Of a stretch of DNA of 34,914 bases, positions 11,310 through 34,914 are shown piece by piece. The notes beneath the pieces are model-generated. The model did no database searches and had not been told where the DNA came from. It saw only the letters and a program-made list of their open reading frames with translations. How positions within the stretch are numbered: the stretch's first letter is position 1; every line of letters starts with the position of its first letter. Source of the stretch: Bacteroidia bacterium. Its GTDB lineage: Bacteria > Bacteroidota > Bacteroidia > Bacteroidales > Marinilabiliaceae. The DNA lies in NCBI GenBank assembly GCA_030526155.1, contig JAUNDI010000029.1, positions 1 through 34,914 of the forward strand, given 5' to 3'. The position numbers were made by a program, and so were the translations under genes.

Positions 11310-13256
11310 ATGGCTAATAAGTATCCACTTCTTACGAGCCCTATTAAGTTGGGCAATGTAATATTTAGGAATAGAATGTTTTCGGCTCCAATGGGAGCTA
11401 CAGATATTACACCAGAATGTGTACCTGGTCCGCGTACAAGAGGTTTTTATGAGCTTAGGGCGAAAGGTGGCGCGGCATCTGTAACAGTTAGTGAGCTTGT
11501 AGTTGACCCTGAGACAGACCAAAGTCACATGCTACATCTCAACCTTACTACGGTAGGTTGTCTAGCGGAGCATACATATATTGCTGATGCGCTACGTAGG
11601 CATGGCTCGGTACCTAGTATAGAGCTTTCGCACTCTGGTCAGTATGCAGGTACATATATGTCTGATAAGGATAAGAAGGCAAGTCTCAACCAGTGGGGAC
11701 CAAGTGATAATGTTCGTCCGGATGGTCGTCCTGTTAAAGGCCTCTCGAAGGAGCAGATAGCACATATCGTTAAATGTTATGGTGATAATGCGGCTTTGTG
11801 TAAGCGTGCGGGCTATGAGATGATAATGGTGCATGCTGGTCATGGTTGGCTTCTCAATCAGTTCCTATCTCCATATTTCAATAAGCGTACGGATGAGTAT
11901 GGCGGTTCGACAGAGAATAGAGTACGTATAGTAATTGAGGTACTTCAAGCAGTGCGAGCTGCAGTTGGTCCTGGCTTCCCTATAGAGCTTCGTATATCGG
12001 GATCAGAGCTATTTGAGGGAGGTTATGATATTAATGAGGGTTGTCGTATCGCACAGCTTATAGAGGATTATGTAGATCTTATACATGTTTCTGTTGGATC
12101 TTATCAATTTGGTTTCTTTGATACTACGTTACCTATGTTTGTACCACATGGCGACAATGTAAAGTATGCGGCAGAGGTAAAGAAGCATGTGAAGAAGCCA
12201 GTGGCATGTATTGGCGCATTATCTGACCCTGAGCAGATGGAGGAGATAATACGAGAGGGTAAGGCAGACGTTATATATATGGCACGTCAGTTACTTGCTG
12301 ATCCATTCTTGCCAAATAAGGTATTAGCTGGAGAGGAGGATCAGATAGTTAAGTGTCTACGTTGTTATACTTGTATGGCAGAGCGACCAACTACCTTTAC
12401 TAGACGATGTGCTGTTAACCCAGTTGTGGGACGTGAGATAGAGGGTATGGAGGTAGTTCCTGCGTACCATAAGAAAAAGGTATTGGTGGTAGGTGCAGGT
12501 GTAGCTGGTTTGAAAGCTGCTGTTACGGCTGCTCAGAGAGGACATGAGGTAATACTATGCGAGAAGAGCGATGCGGTAGGCGGTATATTAAAGTCGGAGC
12601 AAGCCATCCCATTCAAGCATGAGATGTATGAATTAGGATTGTCGTTGGAGAAGCAGGCTAGGGTAGAGGGAGTAGATATTAGGCTTAATACGATTGTTAC
12701 TCCAGAGTATGTAGAGTCGATAAAGCCAGACGCATTGTTATTAGCGGTAGGTTCTACACCTATTGTACCACCATTGCAAGGAATAGATGGAGACAATGTA
12801 GTGGTAGTAAATAATTATTACCTAGAGAAAGAGAAGGTAGGTAAGAAGGTAGTGGTTCTTGGTGGCGGTTTAGCAGGTTGTGAGTGTGCTGTTCACCTTG
12901 GACAAGAGGGTAAAGAGGTCTCTATTGTGGAGATGCGAGATACATTAGCCCCTGATTGTAATATTAGAAATAGGCCTATTTTGATGCGTAATGTAGATAA
13001 GTATGCTACAAAGTATATGCAGACAGCAGGTCTACGTGTAACACCAGAGGGACTAATAGTGAAGACACCAGAGGGTAATGAGGAGCTAATAAAGGCTGAT
13101 ACTATTATATGTGCAGTTGGCCAGCGTGCCAATAGAGCAGATGCTGATGCAATGCACACAGCTGCACCATTTGTAAGAGAGGTAGGCGACTGTGTTCGTC
13201 CTGCTAATATTACAAAAGCCATTTATGAGGCATATCATGCTGCTTTGGATATTTGA
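11310..13256 (+). CDS. FadH/OYE-type NAD(P)H:flavin oxidoreductase (FMN, 4Fe-4S, FAD)
   Basis: A 648-residue enzyme of the 2,4-dienoyl-CoA reductase / old-yellow-enzyme fusion family. The TIM-barrel FMN domain spans about 1-345, with active-site H175 and H178 in VHAGHGWLLNQF followed by NKRTDEYGG. The 4Fe-4S cysteines are C349, C352, C355 and C367 (CLRCYTC and RRCAVNP). The FAD-binding GAGVAG is at 395-400 and a second NAD(P) GGGLAG motif is near 525. Family members reduce enoate-type double bonds, including dienoyl-CoA, bile-acid intermediates, bilirubin and xenobiotics. The substrate cannot be inferred here, and no beta-oxidation or bile-acid genes are adjacent. All cofactor motifs are intact. 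It is single-gene, divergent from the 5'-nucleotidase, and ends in a terminator. Confidence 0.92.
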   Translation: MANKYPLLTSPIKLGNVIFRNRMFSAPMGATDITPECVPGPRTRGFYELRAKGGAASVTVSELVVDPETDQSHMLHLNLTTVGCLAEHTYIADALRRHGSVPSIELSHSGQYAGTYMSDKDKKASLNQWGPSDNVRPDGRPVKGLSKEQIAHIVKCYGDNAALCKRAGYEMIMVHAGHGWLLNQFLSPYFNKRTDEYGGSTENRVRIVIEVLQAVRAAVGPGFPIELRISGSELFEGGYDINEGCRIAQLIEDYVDLIHVSVGSYQFGFFDTTLPMFVPHGDNVKYAAEVKKHVKKPVACIGALSDPEQMEEIIREGKADVIYMARQLLADPFLPNKVLAGEEDQIVKCLRCYTCMAERPTTFTRRCAVNPVVGREIEGMEVVPAYHKKKVLVVGAGVAGLKAAVTAAQRGHEVILCEKSDAVGGILKSEQAIPFKHEMYELGLSLEKQARVEGVDIRLNTIVTPEYVESIKPDALLLAVGSTPIVPPLQGIDGDNVVVVNNYYLEKEKVGKKVVVLGGGLAGCECAVHLGQEGKEVSIVEMRDTLAPDCNIRNRPILMRNVDKYATKYMQTAGLRVTPEGLIVKTPEGNEELIKADTIICAVGQRANRADADAMHTAAPFVREVGDCVRPANITKAIYEAYHAALDI

Positions 13257-13326: not shown

Positions 13327-13355
13327 ATACTTTTTACGATGAAAGAGGAGGCAGG

Positions 13356-13399
13356 GAGTACCTTGGGAGCACTCGGGGAGCACCCTATGAGCACCTTAT
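13356..13399 (+). repeat. Array A of four 11-bp tandem units
   Basis: Consecutive 11-mers GAGTACCTTGG, GAGCACTCGGG, GAGCACCCTAT and GAGCACCTTAT, followed by degenerate continuation (GAATAGTTGGA, GAGGTGGGTGT). The 11-nt step breaks any reading frame. Units closely match those of arrays B and C elsewhere in the window. Confidence 0.8.
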
Positions 13400-13482
13400 G
13401 AATAGTTGGAGAGGTGGGTGTTTATATAAACTAAAGGTTTGTTGAGGGAGGTGGAGCTGGGGATTTTGGTGGTTTAGAGGGG

Positions 13483-13561
13483 CTAGATGATAGTTATTCT
13501 AGTTGTTCTGGATGGGCTAGTGGAGGCTAGATATTCTAGAGGGGGCGCTAGAGTAGGCTAG
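13483..13561. repeat. Cluster of seven CTAG sites with about 10-bp spacing
   Basis: CTAG begins at 13483, 13499, 13517, 13527, 13536, 13548 and 13558. The last five steps are 10, 9, 12 and 10 nt, near one helical turn, and most sites sit in a GGCTAG or TTCTAG context. It may be a worn-down tandem array or a set of protein sites. The genome uses CTAG fairly often elsewhere, which tempers its significance. Confidence 0.5.
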
Positions 13562-13608
13562 AGGTGTAGGAGATGTATAGGTGAGGTTATTGGGGAGTGG
13601 ATATACAT

Positions 13609-16245: not shown

Positions 16246-16962
16246 CTATAGATGATTATAGTTAAATACCAAAGTCAGCATACTTAGTTTATTAGCGTCG
16301 CCTATAAATATTTGGCGTTTGCTACCTAGGGAGTATGTGTAGTTGATAGCTAGTTTGATTTTGTTGGAAGTAGTAATAGATATACCGCCTCCGATACGGA
16401 AACGTTGGAATATTGGTGCGTTTGATATATCGGGGGTAATGTTGATGGTTTCGCTAGCTACTAAGTATGGCGTGTATTTAGGGGATATGTTTTTGAATGA
16501 GTATTGTTGGTAGTATGTAGCATCGGAGCAGAAAGCCTTATCGTCTGATGGTTTGTATATGATTCTACGTTGAGATAGGTAGAAGCTATGAGAGAAGTTG
16601 GTTTGTGTTAGGAATGCGATACCCTCGACTAGGCGAAGTTCTGTATCCGAGTTAGTAATACTGTTATACTCTTGGTGGGTAATAGAGGCAGAAGCGAATA
16701 ATAGTCGACGTTCCATGACCTTAAATTGACCCTTAGTAGATAATCTCCACCAGGTACCAGATTGGTGGTTGAGCTGCTGGTATATTGAGCCATCGGCCGA
16801 GAGGGTCCATCTAGGAGAGACATTAACTGTATAGATAGCGCGAGCGCCGAGGTCGATAGGCTGTTGTGCGTACATATCAAAGATTGCCATCTGCAATATA
16901 CAGATGGCAATCATGATAATATACCTTTTATGTAGTAATCTGCGCAATTTGATTATTTGCAA
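16246..16962 (-). CDS. DUF2490-like outer-membrane beta-barrel protein
   Basis: A 238-residue exported protein dominated by alternating aromatic/hydrophilic strands (YTVNVSPRWTLSADGSIYQQ, LLFASASITHQEY, KLAINYTYSLGSKRQ), ending in a hydrophobic-aromatic tail typical of outer-membrane barrels. It resembles DUF2490, whose function is unknown. The reading frame starts with a TTG at 16962, overlapping the glmM stop by 10 nt, which would be translational coupling. This start provides the basic n-region KLRRLLHKR before the signal-peptide core IIMIAICILQMAIF (cleavage around MYAQ). The first ATG at 16914 would leave a signal peptide without positive charges, so TTG is preferred. No obvious terminator follows. 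Confidence 0.7.
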   Translation of the reverse strand: MQIIKLRRLLHKRYIIMIAICILQMAIFDMYAQQPIDLGARAIYTVNVSPRWTLSADGSIYQQLNHQSGTWWRLSTKGQFKVMERRLLFASASITHQEYNSITNSDTELRLVEGIAFLTQTNFSHSFYLSQRRIIYKPSDDKAFCSDATYYQQYSFKNISPKYTPYLVASETINITPDISNAPIFQRFRIGGGISITTSNKIKLAINYTYSLGSKRQIFIGDANKLSMLTLVFNYNHL

Positions 16963-20729: not shown

Positions 20730-20773
20730 GCGTCTGCCTAGCGTCTGTATAGAGCGAGGTATGAGCGAGGTAT
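20730..20773 (+). repeat. Array C of four 11-bp tandem units
   Basis: Consecutive 11-mers GCGTCTGCCTA, GCGTCTGTATA, GAGCGAGGTAT and GAGCGAGGTAT (the last two identical), followed by GAGAAAGCGTT. It has the same length (44 bp) and GAGC...TAT style as arrays A and B. It lies between two hairpins downstream of the GH26 gene. Confidence 0.8.
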
Positions 20774-22768: not shown

Positions 22769-22805
22769 ATTATTGGTGTTTTTATGATTATACTAATTAG
22801 TGAAA

Positions 22806-22856
22806 GGGTGCTCTATACCCATAGTGCACTCGGGGAGCACCCATAGAGCACCCATA
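22806..22856 (-). repeat. Array B of 11-bp units with an inverted repeat
   Basis: Consecutive 11-mers CTATACCCATA, GTGCACTCGGG, GAGCACCCATA and GAGCACCCATA fill 22813-22856, the last two identical. In addition GGGTGCTCTAT (22806-22816) and ATAGAGCACCC (22843-22853) are perfect 11-bp complements, so the element can fold. It sits between the TonB receptor stop and the HMA gene start within one operon. Confidence 0.8.
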
Positions 22857-22867
22857 GAAGAGCATTG

Positions 22868-25087
22868 TTATTGTTCTAAAGAAAACCTTATACCTAGATA
22901 GAACTTACGGCTCATGAGAGGGCCCCATATCATGGTACCATCGAAGTATTCTGAGGTAGGCTTATCGGCAGCTATGATAGCGTGATGCTGCATATAGTTG
23001 CCAATATTCTCACAACCAGCGTAGATGCTCCAGTTTTTGTACCACTTAGTAATCTGGGCATTATACATTTGGTAAGATGAGAAGTGAGAGCCGCGTTGGT
23101 ATTCGGTAGGGTTACCCTCTGTTGTAGGAACACGACCGCCGCCATTAAGCTGCATATTGGCATCGAATTGCCATGTTTTAAGAGGAGTTTGGTAAGATAC
23201 GGCGATGAGACCCTTGTATCGGCTTACTAGAGGACGTTGGCGGAGCTCGTTATTTAGCATTTGCTTAGCCTCATTCCATCTCCATGCGGCTGTGATATCT
23301 AGACCCTTGAGGCGGTATGTAGCCTCGATTTGTACTGTATTAGCGTAAGATTTAGCATCAGAGTTATGGGCGTAGATATCACGGATGTTACGATCGGTGT
23401 CTAGGATAAGTTGGTTATTGAACTTAGTGTGGAAATATTCCACATTTACCGATAGACCAGTTTCACCTACTGTTTGTTGGATGCTACCACCCATGTTCCA
23501 TGCCTTTTCTTGAGAGTAGACATCGGTATTAGAGTAGTTCCACTTACGAGCAGAAGAGAGCATGAAGTTGTTCTCTGCGAAGAGGGCGGCAGTACGATAA
23601 CCCTTACCTATGCCAGCGCGGAGGACTGTATATTGAACAGGAGCGTAGCGCACGTGGAGGCGAGGAGTAAAGAAGAGATCGTGAGTAGAGCTATAGTCGC
23701 CACGTACACCAGCGATAACAGAAAGCTTATCCTCGAGAGAGAGAGTATACTGAGCATATAAGCCATAGGTATACTCCTTGAGGGAGTATTTGTGGGTATT
23801 CTCTGTATTGCCGAAACCTATTGTTTCATCGTAAAAATCACCTGAAGAGGATAGTCCGCCATCGAAAGTATGAGTATCCTCCTCCCAAGCCTTACGGAAG
23901 AGGGCATTGATGTAATAAGAGTGTTGAGTACCCTTATATGCTCTATTTCCGAAGAATGAATTTTGGTGATGGTAGATATAAGATGTTTGGATACCTAGGT
24001 TAGCGTCGTCTTCGAAGCTAAAACCATTCTTCATCCATGACTCTACGCGATCTGTTTTGATGTATACGCCATAGATATTATCGATAGGCTTATCGGCATT
24101 GAAATCCATCTGACCACCACGACGAATTTCGTTCATGGTTTTTACTACTATTTGACCAGTGTAGTTATTACGGTGAAGATTCCAGCGATTTAGGAAGCTT
24201 AGTTGCTTTGTTTCAGGCTCGTCGCGGAAGTTGTCATTATTCTCATCCATGCTATTGAAATCCTTAGTAGCACTTATGATGAGAGCTGTAGATAGGCCAT
24301 CTGCCACGTGGGTAGCTACAGAGGCGTTAAGTTCGCCACGGCCAGCAGTAGTACCGAATAGGCTAGCAGAGACGATCTCCTCTGATACAGGCTTTTTGTA
24401 CTCGTAGTTGATTTGGCCTGTGAACGCTTCGTAGCCATTGACGACAGTACCTACGCCCTTAGAGATTGAGATACCATCCATCCAAGAGCCAGGGACATAG
24501 CTAAGGCCGAATGGAGCAGCTATACCGCGAAGGTTAGGGATATTTTCCGAGAGCATTTGGACGTAACGACCAGAGAGGCCTAGGAGCTGGATGGTACGAG
24601 CACCTGTAGTAGCATCGGCGTAGTTGACATCTACGGAAGCGTTAGTTTCGAAAGACTCGCCGAGGTTACAGCAAGGAGCCTTGCAAAGTTCGTCCTTGCT
24701 AAGGTCTTGAGTAAGTTGAGGCGACTTACGATTGATACTTGATCCTAGCTTACGTTGAGCTACTACTACCTCCTCTAGTTGTTCTGGTTGGAGAGTAATG
24801 GTAATATTCTCCTTATCGGAGATAGAAGATACGTCGATAGTCTGTGAGGTATAGCCCACGTATTGGAAAGTAAGCTTTGTAGATGAGTTATCTGCGTCGA
24901 TAGAGAAAGAGCCATCAAAATCTGTTGTTGTACCATGAGATGTACCCTCCCAGATGACGAAAGCAGAGTATAGAGGCTCGGCCTTTGAAGGGTCAGAAGC
25001 GTCGGCACCCAATACGATGCCACGGTATTGTGCGTTAGATGATGCAATGAAAGATAGCATCATCATGAAAGAAAGAATATATTTCAT
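22868..25087 (-). CDS. TonB-dependent outer-membrane receptor, probably metal-related
   Basis: A 739-residue outer-membrane transporter. The signal peptide is about 1-19. A carboxypeptidase-regulatory-like domain spans about 20-102 (FDGSFSIDADNSSTKLTFQYVGYTS), and a TonB-box-like segment LEEVVVAQRK is at about 104-113. The plug domain covers about 120-235 (RTIQLLGLSGRYVQML, GYEAFTGQINYEYKKP) and a 22-strand barrel runs to the terminal aromatic residues (KFYLGIRFSLEQ). Cysteines C135, C139 and C140 (LCKAPCCNLGESFETN) precede the plug, as in a receptor subfamily that neighbours HMA proteins. It lacks a SusD partner, which argues against glycan uptake. Together with the flanking Cys/His-rich and HMA proteins, import of a soft metal or its chelate is the best inference. 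Confidence 0.9.
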   Translation of the reverse strand: MKYILSFMMMLSFIASSNAQYRGIVLGADASDPSKAEPLYSAFVIWEGTSHGTTTDFDGSFSIDADNSSTKLTFQYVGYTSQTIDVSSISDKENITITLQPEQLEEVVVAQRKLGSSINRKSPQLTQDLSKDELCKAPCCNLGESFETNASVDVNYADATTGARTIQLLGLSGRYVQMLSENIPNLRGIAAPFGLSYVPGSWMDGISISKGVGTVVNGYEAFTGQINYEYKKPVSEEIVSASLFGTTAGRGELNASVATHVADGLSTALIISATKDFNSMDENNDNFRDEPETKQLSFLNRWNLHRNNYTGQIVVKTMNEIRRGGQMDFNADKPIDNIYGVYIKTDRVESWMKNGFSFEDDANLGIQTSYIYHHQNSFFGNRAYKGTQHSYYINALFRKAWEEDTHTFDGGLSSSGDFYDETIGFGNTENTHKYSLKEYTYGLYAQYTLSLEDKLSVIAGVRGDYSSTHDLFFTPRLHVRYAPVQYTVLRAGIGKGYRTAALFAENNFMLSSARKWNYSNTDVYSQEKAWNMGGSIQQTVGETGLSVNVEYFHTKFNNQLILDTDRNIRDIYAHNSDAKSYANTVQIEATYRLKGLDITAAWRWNEAKQMLNNELRQRPLVSRYKGLIAVSYQTPLKTWQFDANMQLNGGGRVPTTEGNPTEYQRGSHFSSYQMYNAQITKWYKNWSIYAGCENIGNYMQHHAIIAADKPTSEYFDGTMIWGPLMSRKFYLGIRFSLEQ

Positions 25088-34898: not shown

Positions 34899-34914
34899 GA
34901 GCCTGTATAGAGCG
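34899..34914 (+). repeat. Array D: start of an 11-bp repeat array cut by the window end
   Basis: GAGCCTGTATA (34899-34909) is followed by GAGCG at the window edge. The 12-nt string CTGTATAGAGCG is identical to 20745-20756 in array C, at the boundary between units. The rest lies outside the window. Confidence 0.55.

Follow-up and report, generated by a model that had tools for sequence, protein, structure and literature searches.

In an uncultured Bacteroidales gut bacterium, many of the 11-bp tandem arrays form the repeated part of a larger element that occurs dispersed in the genome. Its A/T-rich leader is followed by a head (RCGATGAACAAGG or GCGAGCAACAAGG), and this by a series of 11-bp units. 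The dispersal of this modular repeat is well supported, and its helical register is, judging from the sequence, probably set by a DNA-binding protein. The reading that we favour, with somewhat less than even confidence, is that of a non-coding repeat, lying mostly between genes, that has been copied and whose units would be contacted in register by such a protein.

Arrays in the window and their abundance

The window, by which we mean the whole stretch of 34,914 nucleotides analysed, is an entire contig (G000:C73) from a draft genome of 85 contigs and 2.6 Mb. When the folD protein was used in a scan, the nearest two named genomes were MAGs from horse faeces (97 and 96% identity), the first of which contains the sequence of the congener G013. 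An earlier note made from the letters of the window had described four consecutive 11-bp units at each of three intergenic loci (arrays A, B and C), the last two units being identical in B and in C, and a fourth array (D) beginning at the window edge. Direct reading of the sequence confirmed all of this (Table 1); array D is incomplete because the contig, all of which is in the window, ends there. The proposed relatedness of the units across loci was also borne out, but two classes had been missed, with GAGCAC in A and B and with GAGCGAG and GCGTCTG in C. In 33-bp windows, the top self-matches at lag 11 were 24/33 in array A, 22/33 in array B and 23/33 in array C, all higher than the maximum reached at lag 11 after dinucleotide shuffling of the window (21/33 in 60 rounds).

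Table 1. Repeat features of the window.
Feature	Position	Strand	Description
Degenerate head CTTTTTACGATGAAAGAGG	13330..13348	+	Precedes array A; TACGATGAA at 13335
Array A	13356..13399	+	Four 11-bp units GAGTACCTTGG GAGCACTCGGG GAGCACCCTAT GAGCACCTTAT; class 1 (GAGCAC type)
9-bp repeat stretch	13474..13566	+	Degenerate, TAGTTATTC-like units; same gap as array A; by eye
Array C	20730..20773	+	Four 11-bp units GCGTCTGCCTA GCGTCTGTATA GAGCGAGGTAT GAGCGAGGTAT; class 2; without head
Inverted repeat GGGTGCTCTAT / ATAGAGCACCC	22806..22853	+	Covers most of array B
Array B	22813..22856	+	Four 11-bp units CTATACCCATA GTGCACTCGGG GAGCACCCATA GAGCACCCATA; class 1; without head
Array D	34899..34914	+	GAGCCTGTATA GAGCG, one unit and part of the next; class 2

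Array A lies in a gap between convergent genes, with flanking ORF ends at 13256 and 13890. The units behind its head read GAGCAC, whereas by eye those behind heads such as the ones of locus L018 run in the other sense (GTGCTC). The head of array A is absent from the head counts given below because it falls under the thresholds used. In the 9-bp stretch of the same gap, Tandem Repeats Finder reported a single short row at 13491-13509. This 9-bp family (TAGTTATTC / CTAGAATAA) was also seen at L035 (about 7107) and L045 (15316-15520), and in several places it adjoins heads. Two congeners, G008 and G013, have no array at the site of array C; at that of array B, an array with another unit type is present in G008 and none in a further congener, G010.

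The enrichment of such arrays elsewhere in the genome, on which the earlier note had staked its claim, was found: the three-unit pattern GAGCN7GAGCN7GAGC had 28 matches in the window's genome (G000) against 4 for the reversed pattern, although two of the 28 (L002 and L028), judged by eye, resemble matches that arose in genes by chance. A looser two-unit pattern gave 205 matches in the genome against 108 reversed, and with one mismatch allowed it showed no excess in the window itself (25 against a mean of 22.4). The reversed control of the GAGC pattern is not neutral in G008 and G013 (102 and 22 matches, forward 18 and 14), because it reads CGAG and matches another array type there. The claim of exactly four units per locus did not hold as a rule, since runs counted with a strict pattern over 830 kb comprised two to four units and L013 has five. 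For class 2, two-unit runs over the same 830 kb (10) were barely above the reversed control (8). The class-2 pattern, which is the reverse strand of array C with three mismatches allowed and matches the window at 20753-20773, had 47 matches against 1 reversed in G000, 15 against 3 in G013, 5 against 0 in G010 and 2 against 0 in G008; none of the other 11 congeners had more than one.

Intergenic windows with self-matching at lag 11 occurred at 0.64 per kb in 435 kb of G000, compared with 0.03 at lags 10 and 12. The corresponding lag-11 values were 0.64 in G013, 0.68 in G008 and 0.30 in G010; none were found in smaller samples of G001-G004, and G006 and seven other related loci gave 0.21 (two windows) and 0.30 (three windows), respectively. 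In 42 loci of Bacteroidaceae and other Bacteroidetes the value was 0.02 (two windows). These samples are not random, as the stretches were taken from long contigs known from hit lists and all eight G008 contigs had previously been found through array hits. Genes were called with our own codon-statistics script.

Other arrays were seen in Bacteroides and relatives. A separate 11-bp family (CAAAGTCGTAC) has 56, 13 and 6 matches and 0 reversed in three of nine genomes, those of L085, L093 and L079. In these counts, made with the pattern CAAAGTCGTNCCAAAGTCGT and two mismatches allowed, the 56 matches belong to Bacteroides sp. ET71, and six of the genomes had none. The L085 array (16351-16445) is followed by inverted units (fold z -2.90). 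Intergenic arrays with a period of 21-23 bp, some of their units palindromic, were observed at L093 (5549-5658 and 1407-1508), L078 (700-880), L077, L079 and L085. Two further related genomes hold other 11-bp arrays (L057 at 1968; L051 at 5044 and 14760), and in the genome of L057 the pattern TATGGTYGAAC had 3 matches against 0; it was absent from six others.

A dispersed element of leader, head and units

The larger element was recognised by comparing flanks between loci. The description of a dispersed non-coding family in the earlier note stands, but the element with its conserved head, of which many arrays are the body, had been overlooked; class-2 arrays and part of the class-1 arrays have no head. 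The exact 15-base head TTRCGATGAACAAGG had 57 matches in G000, 149 in G013, 22 in G008 and 10 in G010, compared with 0, 0, 1 and 0 for the reversed head. It was absent from the 11 other congeners, which makes 4 carriers among 15, and was found at most once per genome in a further 104 of 119 genomes, five of which have one. Extended by three more leader bases, the head was found only in G000 among 393 genomes of the order, a set that included one head-less congener and none of the other three carriers. Relaxed heads, for which up to five mismatches were allowed and chance matches are thus included, numbered 80 in 830 kb of G000 (59 outside called genes, 21 within) and 91 in 800 kb of G013 (69 and 22); those in called genes are partly chance matches or false gene calls. 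A third type of tandem unit, GAGCGTATGAC, was seen at L288 (11555), with matches in G008, G013 and G010.

The 19-mer GAGCACTCGGGGAGCACCC occurs at 12 loci, some of them found by a pattern containing the array, in 14 distinct contexts with unlike flanks, and we therefore conclude that stretches have been copied between loci. The recent duplication suggested by the earlier note agrees with the identical neighbouring units, although duplication in place cannot alone account for a 19-mer copied between loci. Near-identical dispersed copies would be expected to interrupt a draft assembly, and several contigs do stop at such repeats or close to them. By eye, the aligned flanks showed no terminal inverted repeats.

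Of the intergenic heads in G000, 26 are in tandem gaps, 7 in divergent and 2 in convergent ones; the numbers of heads in G013 are 19, 11 and 5, with 3 more at edges. There is no clear preference for a gap type or an orientation; both orientations occur, the distribution in G000 and G013 is roughly as gap lengths allow, and a role as terminators or promoters was rejected on this ground. Gaps that contain a head are longer, with medians of 303 bp in G000 and 385 bp in G013, than those without (176 and 149 bp). When gene sides were compared between two species, a head was present in both at 6 of 147 and in one only at 9 and 19 (odds ratio 4.0, P = 0.023); the orientation agrees in all six shared cases, three of which come from one orthologue set. 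Among gap pairs, 8 of 64 have a head in both (P = 0.07), half of them sharing one gap, and four of these eight have the same orientation, four are mixed and none is opposite. A count over flanks, in which 46 of 120 had a head in the other species (38 with agreeing orientation, 8 without), carries no weight because gaps were counted repeatedly and there was no matched control. Behind one gene a head was found in three species, beyond a terminator-like hairpin and with differing units. These data are suggestive of head retention at orthologous gaps; the genes matched in the congeners are about 71-79% identical, and none of the congeners is a close strain.

Several other candidates were rejected. 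A leader peptide starting at the ATG of the head (MNKG...) is contradicted by the second head form, which has no ATG, and by the median number of codons to the stop, which was 21, 14, 8 and 12 in G000, G008, G013 and G010 against 17, 14, 16 and 24 in shuffled sequence. As to a phage origin, one longer head pattern was found in two viral contigs, both times in the same gene-like sequence, which we read as chance. A partner gene between heads was not indicated either, as just one gene among the 987 sampled was flanked by a head on each side.

An 11-bp register behind and between heads

The units behind the head are mostly GTGCTCNNNNN in G000 and GTNTAGCCCGA-like in G008 and G013. With position 1 of the unit set at the C of CGATG or CGAGC, the first unit was evaluated in 72, 66, 14 and 8 elements of G000, G013, G008 and G010, and this order of genomes is kept for all fourfold values below. 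Position 5 was a pyrimidine in 92, 95, 86 and 100% of the elements, position 6 was A/T in 93, 94, 100 and 100%, and position 7 was G/C in 74, 91, 86 and 100%. The information content, taken as the mean over units 1-3 of 77, 82, 34 and 21 elements, was 0.66, 1.13, 1.21 and 1.17 bits at position 6 and 0.10, 0.18, 0.36 and 0.08 bits at position 11. It peaked at position 6 in G008, G013 and G010 and at position 5 (0.87) in G000, where position 9 (0.50 bits) also exceeded position 7 (0.47). In G008, positions 1 and 2 (0.88 and 0.96 bits) equalled or exceeded positions 5 and 7 (0.87 and 0.90), so that in G000 and G008 information extends beyond the triplet. The match at lag 11 behind heads was 0.34, 0.48, 0.55 and 0.39, most other lags lying at about 0.25. 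Unit sequences vary between species, and the register, in which a pyrimidine, an A/T and a G/C recur every 11 bp behind the head, is common to all four carriers.

The distances between neighbouring heads follow the same period. Same-strand neighbours lay at multiples of 11 bp in 40 of 46, 33 of 41, 33 of 40 and 44 of 51 cases (overlapping counts); of the seven exceptions among the 51, distances of 43, 68, 89 and 79 bp (the last three times) are within 2 bp of a multiple and only 92 bp is not. Some head-to-head cycles containing 9-bp repeats measure 79 bp and are out of the 11-bp register. The earlier note had remarked that 11 bp is about one helical turn per unit, and the phasing idea gains weight from the distances between heads, which also fall on 11-bp multiples. 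In G000, nine cycles of 44 bp have a mean body identity of 63% (lowest 37%), and one cycle measures 43 bp. That the 11-bp multiple is kept through such sequence change suggests constraint, although common descent could fix one 11-bp multiple and part of the register may be shared ancestry. In 40 of 44 cases neighbouring heads were on one strand, as expected from tandem duplication or directional copying.

Readings of the register and related systems

A serious possibility, nearly as likely as a repeat read by a protein, is that the family is inert or selfish, an interspersed repeat like BrickBuilt or BOX. The element would then be non-autonomous with an internal minisatellite, the 11 bp being incidental and the register unread. 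Its dispersal fits this, as do the same-strand clusters in tandem, the patchy presence among congeners, the lack of positional preference and the contigs that end in repeats. What it accommodates less easily is that nine cycles have stayed at 44 bp, with one at 43 bp, despite their divergence and that conservation within the unit is uneven in four species, and the terminal inverted repeats were not seen by eye. Slippage in place, producing minisatellites independently at each locus, is by comparison very improbable: neighbouring units are identical in B and C, but unrelated loci share the same head, the 19-mer and the unit order, and this sharing disfavours slippage, as does the lack of enrichment at lags 10 and 12.

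Tandem operators for a transcription factor also appear improbable. Operators of the OmpR/PhoB type are 11-bp direct repeats, and a period of this length would suit tandem binding side by side; however, the arrays number hundreds of copies per genome, as extrapolated from 80 in 830 kb, and lie in divergent, tandem and convergent gaps in either orientation. A transcribed RNA element, such as an attenuator or a small RNA, is no more credible. It agrees with the inverted repeat of array B, where the fold of 22795-22875 reached a z of -2.10 (4 of 200 shuffles equally good), and with mean fold z values from -0.32 to -0.96 in four species on both strands (20 elements each). These means are weak, though, array C (z -0.39) and the L141 array (z 0.19) gave no fold signal, and six loci (86,052 bases) outside the window had no Rfam match at the gathering threshold.

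We retain a protein-read repeat as the preferred reading; recognition once per turn is proposed because the register is accompanied by uneven conservation within the unit. Copies of the element, with its A/T-rich leader, conserved head and variable number of units, have spread between loci, presumably by a copying mechanism, and homogenisation within each genome would have made the units species-specific. Behind the head the triplet recurs in a common register, and the predicted protein would contact each unit once per turn on one face of the DNA. Such a protein would either organise the chromosome or be part of the machinery by which the element is copied. A stronger form of this reading, which we consider rather unlikely, takes the hundreds of arrays as helix-phased docking sites across the chromosome, with one protein, one triplet per turn and units replaced in concert. 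On this view the same design, with other units (CAAAGTCGTAC), may have arisen separately in Bacteroides. The arrays might then correspond, in dispersed form, to plasmid centromere iterons, on which, in the case of parC, ParR binds cooperatively and in phase. In the excerpts of its description, parC of plasmid R1 has two sets of five direct repeats bound by ParR, and a 22-bp fragment contained iterons 1 and 2, hence about 11 bp each (PMC4949242). Direct repeats of about 11 bp are thus found in both systems, whereas parC, as excerpted, is a single plasmid centromere with its own binding protein and here there are many chromosomal sites on many contigs. The lone cis site next to partition genes that characterises centromere iterons is not what the present family shows.

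In line with the earlier note, which did not recognise the family, no description was found in the open-licence literature on 11-bp repeats, undecamer arrays, heptanucleotide repeats, BrickBuilt and nucleoid-associated proteins. When the head and its complement were searched there as letters, together with two array strings, only the head string appeared, in papers that by title concern carp or schistosomes, which we read as chance. The closest known systems would be BrickBuilt of Porphyromonas gingivalis, itself a member of the order Bacteroidales, and BOX of pneumococcus. Excerpts on the BrickBuilt MITE describe an intergenic element of restricted hosts in which a leader precedes spacer-free tandem direct repeats of variable number, with a 23-nt unit, a leader and tail of up to about 300 nt, terminal inverted repeats and 19 copies in one strain (PMC4596501). 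Going by these excerpts, tandem direct repeats in a dispersed intergenic element with a leader are common to both, apart from some relaxed heads in called genes, whereas here the unit has 11 bp, the head about 25 bp, no inverted ends were seen and copies are far more numerous. BOX of Streptococcus pneumoniae is described, in the part of the account used here, as boxB modules flanked by boxA and boxC, with terminal inverted repeats, target duplications and RNA structure (PMC3049150). By that description it is likewise a dispersed modular repeat with one module in variable tandem number, but no terminal inverted repeats were seen here and RNA structure is weak on average. The TAACTGA direct repeats of Beggiatoaceae, some Cyanobacteria and Bacteroidetes resemble the present arrays in forming numerous short direct-repeat sets per genome, intergenic by title; according to the abstract, which mentions no conserved head, most lie directly upstream of start codons, and their unit is a fixed seven bases instead of 11 bp (PMC4679880).

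The usual explanations of intergenic repeats in bacteria are hairpins, transposon remnants and slippage products. The present family has little hairpin signal and is unusual in keeping an 11-bp register despite changing sequence and between neighbouring copies. In practical terms, the repeats mark breaks in the draft assembly. If a protein sets the register, the repeats would mark the sites of that protein across the chromosome, and the unit sets of the four related species would be a natural experiment in the change of a binding code. If the register is unread, the family would still be a clear case of a short repeat spreading and becoming species-specific.
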